Part shown: piece after piece, positions 24,121-31,168 of the stretch | How positions within the stretch are numbered: the stretch's first letter is position 1 | Layout of the letters: each line of letters begins with the position of its first letter | NCBI GenBank assembly: GCA_016218085.1 | Contig: JACREY010000012.1 | Location: 248,001 to 312,000 of the forward strand | DNA: 64,000 nucleotides | Source of the DNA: Ignavibacteriota bacterium | GTDB lineage: Bacteria > Bacteroidota > Ignavibacteria > Tepidaquicellales > Tepidaquicellaceae | Reading direction: 5' to 3' | Program-made: the position numbers and the translations under genes | Notes under the pieces: model-generated | What the model was told of the DNA's origin: nothing | The model's input: the letters and a program-made list of their open reading frames with translations, nothing else | The model's database searches: none

Positions 24121-24152
24121 AAAAAAAAGCCCGCTTTTGCGGGCTTTGTATT
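24121..24152. terminator. Bidirectional intrinsic terminator
   Basis: AAAGCCCGC (24126-24134), loop TTTT, GCGGGCTTT (24139-24147), with A-run on the left and T-rich sequence on the right. It sits between convergent rsmB (+) and the LysM gene (-) and can serve both. Confidence 0.92.
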
Positions 24153-24165
24153 GTTAAATAATTAC

Positions 24166-25086
24166 TTATTTTTTAATCTTAATCTTGTCGTCTTTTTTCA
24201 CTTCTTTCTTAACGTCGCCTTTATTCTTTGTTTTATCTACTTTCTTTATATCCTTCGTTTTATATTTCTTCTTCTTCTGGCTTTGATTCTTTTTCTTGTC
24301 GCCTTCAAGTTCTTTAATCTTCCTGACGTTTTTCATAATGTATGTATTGTCAACAAGCTTCTTGAGGTCTTCGTTTGTCAAAGTCGGAATTCTGATTACC
24401 TGACCCGGATAAATAAGATTCGGATTGGTTATTTTCTTTGGTGTATGTGCAGGAGCAGATATCACTCCGTCTTCGTTTGCCTCCCAGATCTTCGGCCAGT
24501 ATTTCGGATTGCTGTAAATCTCTTTCTTGCCGGCTATCTTCCAGAGGCAGTCACCTTTAACAACCGTGTACTTGTCTTCCTTCACGGCAATCAGGCTCTC
24601 TTTTTCCCACTGCTCAAGCTTCTGCTTCATTGTCACATACCTTTGCCAGTATTCAGGCAGGCATTTTGCTTTTGAAGCAGCTATTTCATCAAAATAATAT
24701 TTTCTTGCATCAGCGGGTGTTCCGGTTCTGTTCAGAATTTTCTTTTCCGTTTCGCTGAATTTCCTCTTGAAGTCTTCAAGACCCGCCTTTGTAGTTCCGA
24801 GCGCAAGATATAATTCATTCTCGGCTGTCCCTGCATCGCCGGTCTTTTTACTCAACAGCGCTTTTAGATCCTGTATATCATCGCCGTAAGTTTTTAGATT
24901 ATCTTCAAGTCCCTTTTTCCTTGCAGTCAATTCTTCTATCTGCTGCTGCCATTCGGCATCAGTCAACTCCCCTTCTTTTCCGTACTTATCATCTTCCTCA
25001 CAGCAGTCTTCATCCTGTGCAAAACCAACAGGCTGCAAAACCAGTGTAAAAATGATAAGTAAAATGAAATAAAAGGTTTTTCCCAT
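24166..25086 (-). CDS. Secreted LysM protein with coiled coil and Lys-rich tail
   Basis: A 306-aa periplasmic protein. It has a signal peptide (to about Gln24), a Cys/Glu-rich segment (EDCCEEDD), a predicted coiled coil (about 40-165), a LysM domain (about 172-235; YTVVKGDCLWKIA to NPNLIYPGQVIRIP), and a strongly basic tail of about 45 residues. LysM binds peptidoglycan. The LysM contains an insertion seen also in YgaU-type proteins. It is about the same length and layout as the LysM protein at 29954-30862, a clear paralogue. It is last in the minus-strand run behind the outer-membrane protein gene. Confidence 0.88.
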   Translation of the reverse strand: MGKTFYFILLIIFTLVLQPVGFAQDEDCCEEDDKYGKEGELTDAEWQQQIEELTARKKGLEDNLKTYGDDIQDLKALLSKKTGDAGTAENELYLALGTTKAGLEDFKRKFSETEKKILNRTGTPADARKYYFDEIAASKAKCLPEYWQRYVTMKQKLEQWEKESLIAVKEDKYTVVKGDCLWKIAGKKEIYSNPKYWPKIWEANEDGVISAPAHTPKKITNPNLIYPGQVIRIPTLTNEDLKKLVDNTYIMKNVRKIKELEGDKKKNQSQKKKKYKTKDIKKVDKTKNKGDVKKEVKKDDKIKIKK

Positions 25087-25098
25087 TATGATATTTTT

Positions 25099-26535
25099 TT
25101 ATTTATAAGTGTCATCAAAGAAGTCACCGATCTTCAATCTGGCGTTAATAAGAATAGTAACGGCGCCCATTGAACCCGATGGCGATTTTGTCAATCTTAC
25201 CGAAGGTCCTATTGCAAATGAACTCAGCGAGAAACCTTCACCGATGCTTGAGATATATGCTTCGAGCAACAGCTGGAAATTTCTCTTTGCGCTTCCCATG
25301 GTTGCGTTTATTCTGACGTCGAAAATTGAATTTGCTAATGTTAACTCTCTGCCTACGAAACCGGCATGAAATTCACCAAGATACTGAGCTATGTAAATTT
25401 TTGACCTTGTTGATCTGAAAACTCTCAGAGGATATCTGAATTCCCAGTTGAAAAAGCTCTGTGAAGAAATCACGTTGTTCGGCATATATCTGTAAGTTGA
25501 ACTGCTGTCGGGTGAGTCATTTTTTACCAATAGCGGCGGATCGTAATCACCGCTGTCTATTGAAGTATAGTAACCGACCTGCAGGAAGTTACCGAACGGA
25601 ATCACATAGTTAACTTCAAGACCGAGTTTCGGAGTGAAGATGTTGTTGTAATTCGAAAACTTGCTTTCTTTTTCGTCTTTTGTTGCTCCGCCGGAGTGTT
25701 TGCGGACAAATTCCTTAATACGGGTTGTTACACCGATTGAAGCACCTAGCATATGGAAGTTTGCCTCAATCATATCTGTTTCCAATGGTCCGGAATATGG
25801 CGTACCCATCCTGAACGAAAATCCGAATCCTCTTTTAATTGGAATTCCGAGAGGGTCACCGCCGAAGAAGTTCAGGTACTGGTTGATGTATGCAACTGTA
25901 TTGACGATTTCAAGCTCTCTTTTCGGAGGTGCAAGAAATTCTGCAAGTCTGACTTTCTTGATTGCCTCTATAAACACTGACGCATAATTGTATCCGATTT
26001 TTGAAAGGTTGACTTTATTGATTCCCCTCCACTGCACCATGAACATCAGAATTGAGTCAGGTACCTGTGATGCAGGATACTGCTTTGCAGTCGGGTCATT
26101 TTCATCACCTATCGTTACCATCTGCAGTTTCGGATCAGTCAGGTTAAACGATAATGTAATGGTTCCCAATGGAGGTTCAATACCAAGGACAGACTGAATT
26201 TCCCTGAATTTCTTGTCGTCTTCCGTTTTACCGTCGATTCTGAAATGGCTCCAGGAGGAAGGATCTTTTTCATCTTCCTTGAATAAGTACTTGAATGCCC
26301 TGGTCGACTCAGTTGAAGTCGTTGTAAATCCGAGTGTAGTATCAATACTAACCGGGGTTGAGTCTCTTGTAATTATCGGCGTTTCCGTAGTAGTAGTTGG
26401 CTCTTCAATAAGTAAGCTTGGTGTAGTGGTCGTGTCAACAATCACTTCCTGTGCGGATAATCTTGCATTTGAAAAAAGTAAGATTAGCGCCAGGCTGAAG
26501 AAAACTAACACCGCTTTTGTAATTGTATTTTTCAT
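25099..26535 (-). CDS. Outer-membrane beta-barrel protein of the envelope cluster
   Basis: A 478-aa protein with a signal peptide (ITKAVLVFFSLALILLFSNARLSAQ), a Thr/Pro-rich linker (about 30-75), a mixed domain (about 80-200), and a C-terminal half with barrel-like strands (RGFGFSFRMGTPYSG, TPKLGLEVNYVIPFGNFLQVGYYTS, RNFQLLLEAYISS, AVTILINARLKIGDFF). I do not recognise a named family. It lies 12 nt upstream of the LysM gene and downstream of the GldM-like gene, so it may be the outer-membrane part of a trans-envelope assembly. That role is inferred from context. Confidence 0.7.
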   Translation of the reverse strand: MKNTITKAVLVFFSLALILLFSNARLSAQEVIVDTTTTPSLLIEEPTTTTETPIITRDSTPVSIDTTLGFTTTSTESTRAFKYLFKEDEKDPSSWSHFRIDGKTEDDKKFREIQSVLGIEPPLGTITLSFNLTDPKLQMVTIGDENDPTAKQYPASQVPDSILMFMVQWRGINKVNLSKIGYNYASVFIEAIKKVRLAEFLAPPKRELEIVNTVAYINQYLNFFGGDPLGIPIKRGFGFSFRMGTPYSGPLETDMIEANFHMLGASIGVTTRIKEFVRKHSGGATKDEKESKFSNYNNIFTPKLGLEVNYVIPFGNFLQVGYYTSIDSGDYDPPLLVKNDSPDSSSTYRYMPNNVISSQSFFNWEFRYPLRVFRSTRSKIYIAQYLGEFHAGFVGRELTLANSIFDVRINATMGSAKRNFQLLLEAYISSIGEGFSLSSFAIGPSVRLTKSPSGSMGAVTILINARLKIGDFFDDTYK

Positions 26536-26600
26536 TTTATTAATAATAATTAATTAACAACCTATTTTGAACTTATTAATTATTTTTGCATCCGGAAATT

Positions 26601-27506
26601 TTACCACTTTCCGAATGAAAACACTCCCATTTGCGAAATCGAGAATTTGGGATTATATTTGTCTTTAACTGAAACCGTGAAACTTGCTCTGTATGGCTCT
26701 TCTTTTCCTTTTGACCACGCATCAAATGCCGTTTGCGAACCTAAAAGAGTCAGCGTCACATCAAAAACAGTTGCACTGACTTGTTTTGTGGATACCGGTC
26801 CGCTTATTTTCACGTCAAGGTCTCCGGGGTTGCTTGATACTATGGTCACCCTGAATCCGACAGAACCCTGCACTGACCTGAGTGATGCGTCCGGTCCGCC
26901 GGGTCCTACTTTCTGAATGTCGATTTTCGGTGCCTGTTTCTGCTTTGTTGGTTTAGTATCAGTTGCGTCACCGACTCTGAATGTCACCGAGCTTTCCCCG
27001 CCGAGCGTTATCGATGCAGTCCCCTGAGGAGGTATGGATGCAAGTGTTCTGCCATCAGCGGTTAAAATGAGTGTCTCCGAATAAGGATTCTTAATCTTTG
27101 ACACCGAGTACTGCATCAACTCCACACCCTGTACGGTCGCTTTTTTGATTTTTTCCGGTTCTTTGATATCCGGTTTTATTGTTTCAGTTTTAATTCTAAT
27201 CGGATCTTGTTGAACAATCGGAGGAGGCATGTCTTTCTTAAGCTGATTAAGTTCAGCCATAAGTTTTTCCATATCATCCGCGGTATATTTCATATTAGTG
27301 TCTATATTAATGCTGGGTATAAGACCGAGCGCCAAAATAGAGTCAATATATTTTTTAAGTGAATCTGCGTAGGTCTTTTTAACCACCTGCTTGGCATCCA
27401 ACACTTCTTCAAGGTTGATGTCTGCACCTTTAAGTGCGATAACGCAGATTACGAATATATACAGTACCTGATATATAATGAATTTTACATCTCTGCCTTT
27501 TTTCAT
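26601..27506 (-). CDS. Single-pass periplasmic protein, GldM/PorM-like N-terminus
   Basis: A 301-aa protein with one N-terminal membrane helix and a beta-rich periplasmic region. The start (IIYQVLYIFVICVIALKGA, then EEVLDAKQVVKK) resembles the GldM/PorM N-terminus, whose pattern is MINLMYxVLxAMLALNVSxEVLxAF. A Pro/Lys linker (about 90-125) leads to two Ig-like segments, the last ending in FSISQMGVFSFGKW. GldM is about 500 aa, so this is shorter and very diverged. It lies 43 nt downstream of the four-helix membrane protein gene, as gldM follows gldL. Homology is plausible but unproven. Confidence 0.5.
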   Translation of the reverse strand: MKKGRDVKFIIYQVLYIFVICVIALKGADINLEEVLDAKQVVKKTYADSLKKYIDSILALGLIPSINIDTNMKYTADDMEKLMAELNQLKKDMPPPIVQQDPIRIKTETIKPDIKEPEKIKKATVQGVELMQYSVSKIKNPYSETLILTADGRTLASIPPQGTASITLGGESSVTFRVGDATDTKPTKQKQAPKIDIQKVGPGGPDASLRSVQGSVGFRVTIVSSNPGDLDVKISGPVSTKQVSATVFDVTLTLLGSQTAFDAWSKGKEEPYRASFTVSVKDKYNPKFSISQMGVFSFGKW

Positions 27507-27549
27507 ATCCTTATGTTAATTTTTTTTGAAAAAAGATTAATTAAAAGTT

Positions 27550-28767
27550 TTAACGTTTGCCCGCCAGGTAAACAAGGTTTTCAAGGCTCTTTAGTGCATT
27601 TGTATCTTTAAGGCTGTTCACCGTTTCTACTAACATTTGAGATGTTTTTTGCAATTCCGATAATACTTTTTCGTCAGGTAATTTTATGCTGTTGATTTCG
27701 GAACCAATCTTATGAATTGCTTCCATGTTATTTTTCAATGTGGCAGAATATTCCGATGTCTTGCTTATGAGCGATGCAACATTTGTCAATGTATTCAAAG
27801 AGTCGCTTATCTGTTTTACGAGATCCGGGCTGAATACCTTTATATTGCTTAGTTCCGCAATTGTTGTCTTCAGGGTAACTATGCTCTTTACAAACTGGTC
27901 ATTAACTCCCTGCGAGAACTTGATGATATTGAGAATCTGTTCTGCGTCTTCCTTGGAAATCTGCTTCACGCCGCCTGTTGTTGCCATTGTGGTAATGAGG
28001 TCCCTGTTGGCTTCCTTCATTCCTTCGAGCAGTAATTCCTGGTTTGCGCTCTGGTTATAGAAATCGTATTCCGTTTTGAATTTATTCACTTCCTCTGTTA
28101 TAGCCTGGAACTGGAGTCCCTGAACTTCGAATACAGAACCGAACAGCTTTCCGATTGCAAGTATTAAAATTGACTTAACTTCAAACGGTACCGAGAAACC
28201 TAAGAATATTGTCGGTCCTTCTTTGATTGAGATAAGAAGAATTGCAGCACCGAGCAGAGGGAGTGCAGTTGCTATTGCGTCAACAAGACCGCTGTAACTT
28301 TCTATGATTCTTGCAATAATGTCTTCTGCAGGTCCTTTTGTTGCGATTTGTTTTTTAAGACTCCTGTTTGACAGGTATGCAAACAGTATGAATAGTATAT
28401 ACGAAGCAAATGGCAGCCACCAGAACTTTACCGGCTCTACAGACTGATTAGTCATCTGTGCGCCCGGGAAAAGGTAACTGGCAAAATTATTTGCCACACG
28501 ACCAAGGAACGGTACATATGACACATCAACGACCAGTGAAATCAATAAAAGCAAAAATGATGGTAATGCAGATCTTAAAACGTCAATTGAACCCTCGCGG
28601 TCAATCTGTTTCAAATGCTGTTTAACAATATACGAATTAACTTGGATTAACTCGGAGTGATTTTCCTTGACGGTTTTTATCTTACCCTGTATCTCCTCAT
28701 CACTCATTTGTCTTACATTATCAGTAATGGTTTTACTGAAAGATTTAAATGTTGATTTTTCTGCCAT
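27550..28767 (-). CDS. Four-helix inner-membrane protein with long cytoplasmic helical tail
   Basis: A 405-aa protein of no family I can name. Hydrophobic segments lie near residues 66-88, 114-133, 161-182 and 187-212, and a soluble helical region with coiled-coil character runs from about 215 to the end. The third segment, VDAIATALPLLGAAILLIS, has a faint resemblance to the pore helix of TolQ/ExbB/MotA proteins. GldL of the T9SS motor also combines membrane helices with a large cytoplasmic helical domain. The next gene downstream is GldM-like. I infer an inner-membrane motor or scaffold component. Confidence 0.55.
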   Translation of the reverse strand: MAEKSTFKSFSKTITDNVRQMSDEEIQGKIKTVKENHSELIQVNSYIVKQHLKQIDREGSIDVLRSALPSFLLLLISLVVDVSYVPFLGRVANNFASYLFPGAQMTNQSVEPVKFWWLPFASYILFILFAYLSNRSLKKQIATKGPAEDIIARIIESYSGLVDAIATALPLLGAAILLISIKEGPTIFLGFSVPFEVKSILILAIGKLFGSVFEVQGLQFQAITEEVNKFKTEYDFYNQSANQELLLEGMKEANRDLITTMATTGGVKQISKEDAEQILNIIKFSQGVNDQFVKSIVTLKTTIAELSNIKVFSPDLVKQISDSLNTLTNVASLISKTSEYSATLKNNMEAIHKIGSEINSIKLPDEKVLSELQKTSQMLVETVNSLKDTNALKSLENLVYLAGKR

Positions 28768-29953: not shown

Positions 29954-30862
29954 TTATTTTTTCTTTTCATCTTTCTTGGGTTCTTCTTTTTTTACGTCTT
30001 TTTTAACGTCTTTCTTTTCGTCTTTCTTTACTTCTTTCTTTACGTCTTTCTTTTCATCTTTCTTTACTTCTTTCTTTTCGTCTTTCTTTACGTCTTTCTT
30101 TACGTCACCTTCTTCTTTTTTGACGACTTTTTTGTGCCATCTTTTCCATTTTTTGGCTTTATCTAAGGCTGATTTTTCAAGGTCTTTTGTTAAAGCCGGG
30201 ACTTTTAATACCTGTCCGGGATAGATTAAATTGGGGTTCTTTATGGTTTTTGCAACTTTAGGAGGTGCTGAAACAACGCCTTTTTCGTTTGCTTCCCAAA
30301 GAACGGGCCACATCTTAGGATTGTTGTAGATTTCTTTCTTGGCTGCTATTTTGTATAAGCAATCGCCTTTTACTACAGTGTATCCGGTGGGCTGTACGAC
30401 AACCGGACCCCATTTGTTAATATCTTCGCCTAATTTTTTGTATCTTGCTGCAAAATCCGGATGGCATCTTAAGTTTGATTTGCCTAATTCTGCATACATT
30501 TTTTCTGCATCTTCTTTCTTACCTTCTTTATTCTTTACGATTGTTTCTAATTTGCCTAAGTTTGATTTGAAGGCATCATATTTATCTTTGCCACCGCAAG
30601 CTGCCCAGTATTCATCTTCGGCTTTCTTTACGTCGGCTTTCTTTGTTTCTAATGTCTTTGCAAGAGCGTCTTTGTCTTTCTGAAGCTCTGCTACTTTGCC
30701 TGTTAATTCGTTCTTCTTAGCAGTGTAATCATCAATTTGCTTCTGCCATTCTTCCATAGTCATTTCTTCCTGTGGAGTTTCTTCGTCCTGCGCGAATGCA
30801 AATTTGCTTCCAATTGCCAAGGAGAGAACAAGCAAAACTAATAATAATTTTTGGAATTTCAT
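29954..30862 (-). CDS. Secreted LysM protein with coiled coil and KKDVKKDE-type tail
   Basis: A 302-aa protein with a signal peptide (to about Gln25), a Glu/Lys coiled coil (about 38-125), a LysM domain (about 160-223) and a tail from about 240 made almost only of Lys, Glu, Asp and Val. The tail is a degenerate 4-8 residue repeat such as KKDEKKEV, and its DNA is a matching tandem repeat (about 30000-30115). The tail could bind acidic polymers or peptidoglycan, or simply vary in length by slippage. It is a paralogue of the LysM protein at 24166-25086 and lies 51 nt behind a small lipoprotein gene. Confidence 0.9.
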   Translation of the reverse strand: MKFQKLLLVLLVLSLAIGSKFAFAQDEETPQEEMTMEEWQKQIDDYTAKKNELTGKVAELQKDKDALAKTLETKKADVKKAEDEYWAACGGKDKYDAFKSNLGKLETIVKNKEGKKEDAEKMYAELGKSNLRCHPDFAARYKKLGEDINKWGPVVVQPTGYTVVKGDCLYKIAAKKEIYNNPKMWPVLWEANEKGVVSAPPKVAKTIKNPNLIYPGQVLKVPALTKDLEKSALDKAKKWKRWHKKVVKKEEGDVKKDVKKDEKKEVKKDEKKDVKKEVKKDEKKDVKKDVKKEEPKKDEKKK

Positions 30863-30913: not shown

Positions 30914-31168
30914 TTATTTGCAGTTCTTTACTGCATCAGTCAATTTATTGAAGTTCTTAATTGACTCGTCTTGCTTTGCAATTTGTTTTTGCAAATCAGC
31001 TTTTTCGCTTTCTAATTTGCTTACATCGCTTTGAAGTTTTTCAACTTCTGCCTTTAAATCAGCTAACTGTTTTAACTGTTCTTCATCCGGACCACCGCCG
31101 CAGCCTACTAAGCCGCCGAAAAATGCAACGGTCAAAAGAATCATGAACATTTTTTTTAATTTTGCCAT
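30914..31168 (-). CDS. Small coiled-coil lipoprotein, Lpp-like
   Basis: An 84-aa protein with a signal peptide and lipobox LVGC (Cys23). The mature part is one long helix with leucine heptads (LADLKAEVEKLQSDVSKLESEKADL) and it ends in Lys84. This layout is that of Braun's lipoprotein, whose C-terminal Lys is linked to peptidoglycan. Sequence homology is not evident, so it is an analogue at best. It has a good Bacteroidota promoter at 31226-31256 and precedes a peptidoglycan-binding LysM gene, consistent with a role in tying the outer membrane to the wall. Confidence 0.85.
   Translation of the reverse strand: MAKLKKMFMILLTVAFFGGLVGCGGGPDEEQLKQLADLKAEVEKLQSDVSKLESEKADLQKQIAKQDESIKNFNKLTDAVKNCK

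Follow-up and report, generated by a model that had tools for sequence, protein, structure and literature searches.

Three adjacent minus-strand genes, termed A, B and C, form a co-directional operon that is conserved in about 70 Ignavibacteria loci with varying flanks. They were identified in a 64,000-nucleotide stretch of an Ignavibacteriota genome (the window). We read A-B-C as a candidate for an undescribed ion-driven trans-envelope motor system, with a probability of roughly 45%. Anatomy and conservation, rather than homology, underlie this reading. Its observed basis comprises the gene set and order, the membrane layout, the invariant membrane residues, the conservation of B paralogues that is biased towards the transmembrane (TM) segment and a gene-conversion signature. 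The initial annotation had proposed a trans-envelope machine of four genes related to the PorLM motor of type IX secretion (T9SS). The machine is retained insofar as the inner-membrane pair of A and B looks motor-like by anatomy and conservation, but the kinship to PorLM is not.

A conserved operon with family-specific flanks

Four minus-strand ORFs in the order A-B-C-LysM had been described with small gaps between them, and the coordinates bore this out (intergenic gaps of 43, 65 and 12 bp). Gene A (27550..28767) encodes a 405 aa inner-membrane protein with four TM helices and a long helical cytoplasmic tail, which we propose as the ring (stator) subunit. Gene B (26601..27506) encodes a 301 aa protein in which one TM helix and a helical stretch are combined with a pair of beta-sandwich domains in the periplasm; it is the proposed axle and arm. 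The product of gene C (25099..26535) is a secreted protein of 478 aa with an N-terminal periplasmic domain and a predicted outer-membrane beta barrel. The fourth gene (24166..25086; 306 aa) is a neighbour outside the conserved core; its product bears a LysM match, as annotated, and is the only one of the four with a convincing family match. A strong, terminator-like hairpin lies 3' of this gene on the same strand (24126..24147), and at the present locus the LysM gene is probably co-transcribed with A-B-C.

Relatives of A were sought in the class and in a wider genome collection, giving 79 named Ignavibacteria-type loci. Nine of these end at A, and the remaining 70 were used for next-gene counts. 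B was found next to A on the same strand in 68/70 loci and C then followed in 56, with median gaps in the relatives' operons of 13 bp (A-B) and 20 bp (B-C). Pairwise distances computed for the three genes are correlated (0.94–0.95), indicating that A, B and C travel together. A was found in 27/29 genomes of family f1 and 14/15 of family f2; both f1 genomes without it are incomplete assemblies. Some lineages have B divided between a TM stub and secreted proteins encoded separately, and the C-terminal tail of A is absent in some.

The surroundings of the operon are family-specific. In f1 it is flanked by PhoH, GuaA-like, LysM and lipoprotein genes, in f2 by different ones (C being followed there by histidine kinase and regulator genes) and in f22 by another set again, unlike either. 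Because the flanks vary by family, the LysM gene is best described as a family-level neighbour. It follows C only in f1, and its absence next to A-B-C in f2 and f22 rules it out as a core member; the view of the four genes as a single unit therefore stands for A-B-C and not for LysM.

These neighbours are relevant to another explanation, in which A-B-C would be a passive envelope tether or sensor that connects with two-component signalling, and in f1 also with wall proteins of the LysM and Lpp-like kinds. It would account for the LysM and lipoprotein genes after C in f1, the kinase and regulator genes after C in f2 and the second B genes that adjoin such signalling genes in both families (see below). 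However, neighbours of this kind vary by family where A-B-C is constant, and the strongest conservation lies in the membrane, not in wall-facing parts. We consider a tether or sensor quite improbable.

Other genes near the operon were also recorded. The window contains a second LysM protein, whose long tail is of the KKDEKKDVKK type, and an Lpp-like lipoprotein gene (29954-30862 and 30914-31168); this gene pair changes place around A-B-C across family f1. A gene for a Peripla_BP_6 (LivJ/LpoA-like) protein is located directly 5' of A in several f1 genomes (L213:5110-6438, L210:4173-5498 and others), and three near-identical tandem ORFs of ~115 aa each occur in a complete f22 genome (L042:2605-3589).

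Membrane anatomy and conservation of A and B

In agreement with its annotation as a four-helix membrane protein with a helical tail, A showed four hydrophobic segments and, at its C-terminus, a long helical tail, and loop charges place the N-terminus and the tail inside. The AlphaFold model, in which only the TM core reaches high confidence, has long helices at residues 117-144, 148-183 and 185-263, the last two of which extend TM3 and TM4 into the cytoplasm. In an alignment of 70 sequences, all 15 invariant columns of A fall within TM3-TM4, from P170 to V212 (hairpin at residues 161-215; 28123..28287). Glu196, found in 70/70 sequences, and Lys198 are both invariant and lie within the membrane in TM4.

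A had no match in Pfam or NCBIfam, and a deep-profile search of PDB sequences returned chance matches only. PF01618 was absent both from the matches of A itself and from the 25 families that were matched by most of the 70 A sequences. Most of the 50 best Foldseek matches of the A model were ExbB, TolQ or MotA chains, with motor E-values >0.1, and VIA-align gave Z scores of 8.0–8.3 for TolQ, ExbB and ZorA, a level that AcrB and other unrelated helical proteins reached as well. The scores of both searches lie where noise from helical proteins is expected, and these model-based comparisons weakly back a motor-like reading of A. GldL does not appear in the VIA-align rows for A, an absence that proves nothing. 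Homology of A to ExbB was also sought by profile and nothing was found (hhalign against the ExbB of the source genome's own order, 0.2%); GldL fails the same test, so the test is powerless at such distance.

B proved to be the single-pass periplasmic protein that had been annotated, with one N-terminal TM segment and a periplasmic part. Its model shows the TM segment at residues 7-25, then a helical part of low confidence and two beta-sandwich domains. Ten of the 12 invariant columns of B are at residues 6-32 (27411..27491), in or beside the TM segment, which, in contrast to MotB, TolR and ExbD, has no acidic residue in mid-membrane. Taken together with the invariant columns in TM3-TM4 of A, this suggests that the best-kept parts of the two proteins would be those touching in the membrane. 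No Pfam or NCBIfam family matched B, and a deep-profile search of the PDB gave chance matches only. A fold search with the B model was led by cadherin and Ig folds, GldM being one of many Ig-like folds at rank 30; such matches say little about the nature of B.

Nearly every genome searched had one full-length A locus, yet often more than one B gene. The source genome has one extra B gene (G000:C3:388587-389489) and a further genome, G127, has four that are full-length. Copies within a genome share 61–95% identity in the first 39 residues versus 26–56% beyond, the TM segment being the part kept among these paralogues. In three f2 genomes the operon and second B copies are 91–99% identical at the DNA level, versus 84–89% between orthologues of different genomes, a sign of gene conversion. 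Both the TM-biased identity and the gene-conversion signature fit B copies having to dock into the same A. One A with several B proteins, which share a TM segment and differ in their periplasmic part, is as would be expected for one motor driving exchangeable arms.

The second B of the source genome (L046:8585-9490, equivalent to G000:C3:388587-389489) stands alone and encodes a periplasmic part of its own; a HisKA_3 kinase and a LuxR-type regulator are encoded nearby. Second B copies adjoin HisKA_3 kinase and response regulator genes in both f1 and f2. Gene conversion between B copies (L033, L036 and L037 with L052-L054) probably accounts for the many f2 metagenome contigs that end immediately after A.

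Protein C, surface polysaccharides and the unrecognised type IX motor

C had been annotated as an outer-membrane barrel, and this is upheld as a prediction. Sequence features that fit a predicted barrel are a signal-peptide-like start, the lack of any further TM helix, a strong period-2 signal in hydropathy and an aromatic content of 16% in the C-terminal half. The 55 C sequences gave no convincing Pfam, NCBIfam or PDB match. Assignment of C to PorP/SprF or another known outer-membrane family was rejected, there being no family match. The N-terminal domain (approximately residues 85-200; 25936..26283) also occurs elsewhere in the genomes on its own, as small lipoproteins. One of these, a 119-aa lipoprotein adjoining a BatA-like gene, is in the source genome (L207:7707-8066; G000:C12:77694-78053), and similar lone copies were seen in genome G016.

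Additional copies of C were found in some genomes, and in 4/4 f22 genomes examined they stood beside Wzz/BY-kinase, Poly_export/SLBB or flippase genes; the link between C and polysaccharide export thus concerns four genomes of one family. A-B-C might accordingly be pictured as a scaffold for the making, export or anchoring of surface polysaccharide, in which A and B would bridge the envelope without acting as a motor. The second C copies within Wzx/Wzz/SLBB clusters in the four f22 genomes point in this direction. We nevertheless judge the scaffold unlikely, as most A-B-C loci have no adjoining sugar genes, the extra C copy in G016 lies outside any polysaccharide-export cluster and a scaffold would not account for the charged, invariant positions inside the membrane.

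The T9SS setting was analysed for SprA, GldM and GldN over ~150–300 genomes. SprA was matched in 148/149 genomes of the class. The GldM family TIGR03517 was matched in 0/149 class genomes; PF12081 was matched in 70/296 genomes of the phylum and GldN in 48/198 genomes, none of them in the class. The source genome contains SprA and at least 150 type A T9SS cargo tails with no recognisable GldM or GldN, a setting that fits the diverged motor of the initial annotation. Melioribacter and Ignavibacterium have likewise been described with PorV, SprA and Plug and no other T9SS protein (PMC11705866). With SprA near-universal and GldM and GldN not recognisable, a real gap is left where a motor would be expected: the sampled class has a T9SS translocon without a recognisable one.

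A-B-C could be the T9SS motor itself, driving cargo through SprA and either replacing GldLM and the GldKN ring or being extremely diverged from them. The inventories of the source genome and of Melioribacter and Ignavibacterium are consistent with this, as are the occurrence of A in almost all f1 and f2 genomes and the position of its conserved acid, which sits in the ring subunit and not in the axle, as does GldL E49 (PMC8986121). However, the whole class is without GldM and most of its SprA-positive members are without A too (including the f22 genomes G135 and G140). A does not fill the motor gap for the class as a whole, and the genes adjoining the operon include none recognised as encoding a T9SS translocon component. 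The absence of the cluster from many related SprA-positive genomes counts against the proposed PorLM-type motor; a standard gldM or gldN in the source genome, which would also speak against it, was not found.

Sequence comparison did not favour this explanation either. The comparison set was drawn from the same phylum and comprised 20 canonical gldKLMN loci, from which 19 GldL and 20 GldM were aligned. Profile comparison with hhalign gave probabilities of 4% for A against GldL and 7.7% for B against GldM, and B matched neither TIGR03517 nor PF12081. The score of the A TM hairpin against GldL was equalled by 49/150 column-shuffled controls and that of the B TM segment against GldM by 18/150. 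The resemblance of the B N-terminus to GldM/PorM, from which the proposed kinship had started, is thus at chance level, and in the fold search with B, GldM ranks behind cadherins. A by-eye alignment of GldL GA...E...FEPV with A GAA...E...FEPV, and of GldM Y17 with B Y16, failed the column-shuffle control. As GldL and ExbB profiles fail to find each other, a very old relation would be compatible with the negative profile result; the stated basis of the kinship claim is nonetheless gone, and GldLM kinship is not supported at the sequence level. Overall, we hold it unlikely that A-B-C is the T9SS motor.

A proposed mechanism and its relation to known motors

The best reading of A-B-C as an ion-driven motor is that it works like the 5:2 motors. 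Several A subunits would form a ring in the inner membrane, with two B helices inside it and in contact with A. Ion passage at Glu196/Lys198 of TM4 would turn or shift B, and the periplasmic beta domains of B would relay this motion across the periplasm to C, or to the C N-terminal domain, at the outer membrane. A single A would work with several B arms. In some genomes it would also have several outer-membrane partners of the C type, some of which are encoded among polysaccharide-export genes. More tentatively, A-B-C may constitute a motor lineage separate from MotAB, ExbBD, TolQR and GldLM, to none of which it has a detectable sequence relation. In such a lineage a single ring protein would work with several interchangeable periplasmic arms and outer-membrane partners, and the motor might drive type IX secretion or the movement of surface polymers in bacteria without GldKLMN.

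As an unnamed conserved operon reaching from the inner to the outer membrane in some SprA-positive lineages, A-B-C is a concrete motor candidate. If it is a motor, it adds a further type to the few known ion-driven trans-envelope motors and provides a clear case of one engine with several arms.

GldLM/PorLM resembles A-B in its adjacent genes, in a one-TM partner with a strongly conserved N-terminal TM segment and Ig-like periplasmic domains, in a strictly conserved Glu in the last TM helix of the ring subunit (Glu196 in TM4 of A) and in its presence in Bacteroidota with SprA. It differs in having no detectable sequence relation to A or B, in the two TM helices of GldL compared to four in A and in the four periplasmic domains (D1-D4) of GldM compared to two beta domains in B. 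Furthermore, A-B lacks GldK/GldN neighbours and is followed by a barrel gene instead.

In the Zorya ZorAB system, too, the ring subunit carries a long helical tail in the cytoplasm, and ZorA scored Z 8.1 for A in VIA-align. However, no sequence relation was found, the tail of A is missing in some lineages, no defence genes were noticed beside A-B-C and no wall-binding domain was recognised in B.

Among the 5:2 motors, MotA/TolQ/ExbB with MotB/TolR/ExbD, the layout of A is as in MotA, with four TM helices, the N-terminus inside and long TM3/TM4 helices reaching into the cytoplasm. Its fold matches to ExbB, TolQ and MotA are weak but consistent, and the ring-subunit gene is followed by that of a one-TM partner, as A is by B. 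In contrast, A has no PF01618 match and no sequence similarity to any motor family, B has no mid-membrane Asp and no ExbD- or OmpA-like domain match, and the source genome has a separate ExbB with an ExbD-like gene adjoining. By analogy only, A-B-C also resembles AglRQS of Myxococcus, a single motor that works with Glt/Nfs as alternative envelope partners, one branch being tied to surface polysaccharide (PMC3858216): in both, an engine would be common to alternative envelope partners, one of which handles a surface polymer.
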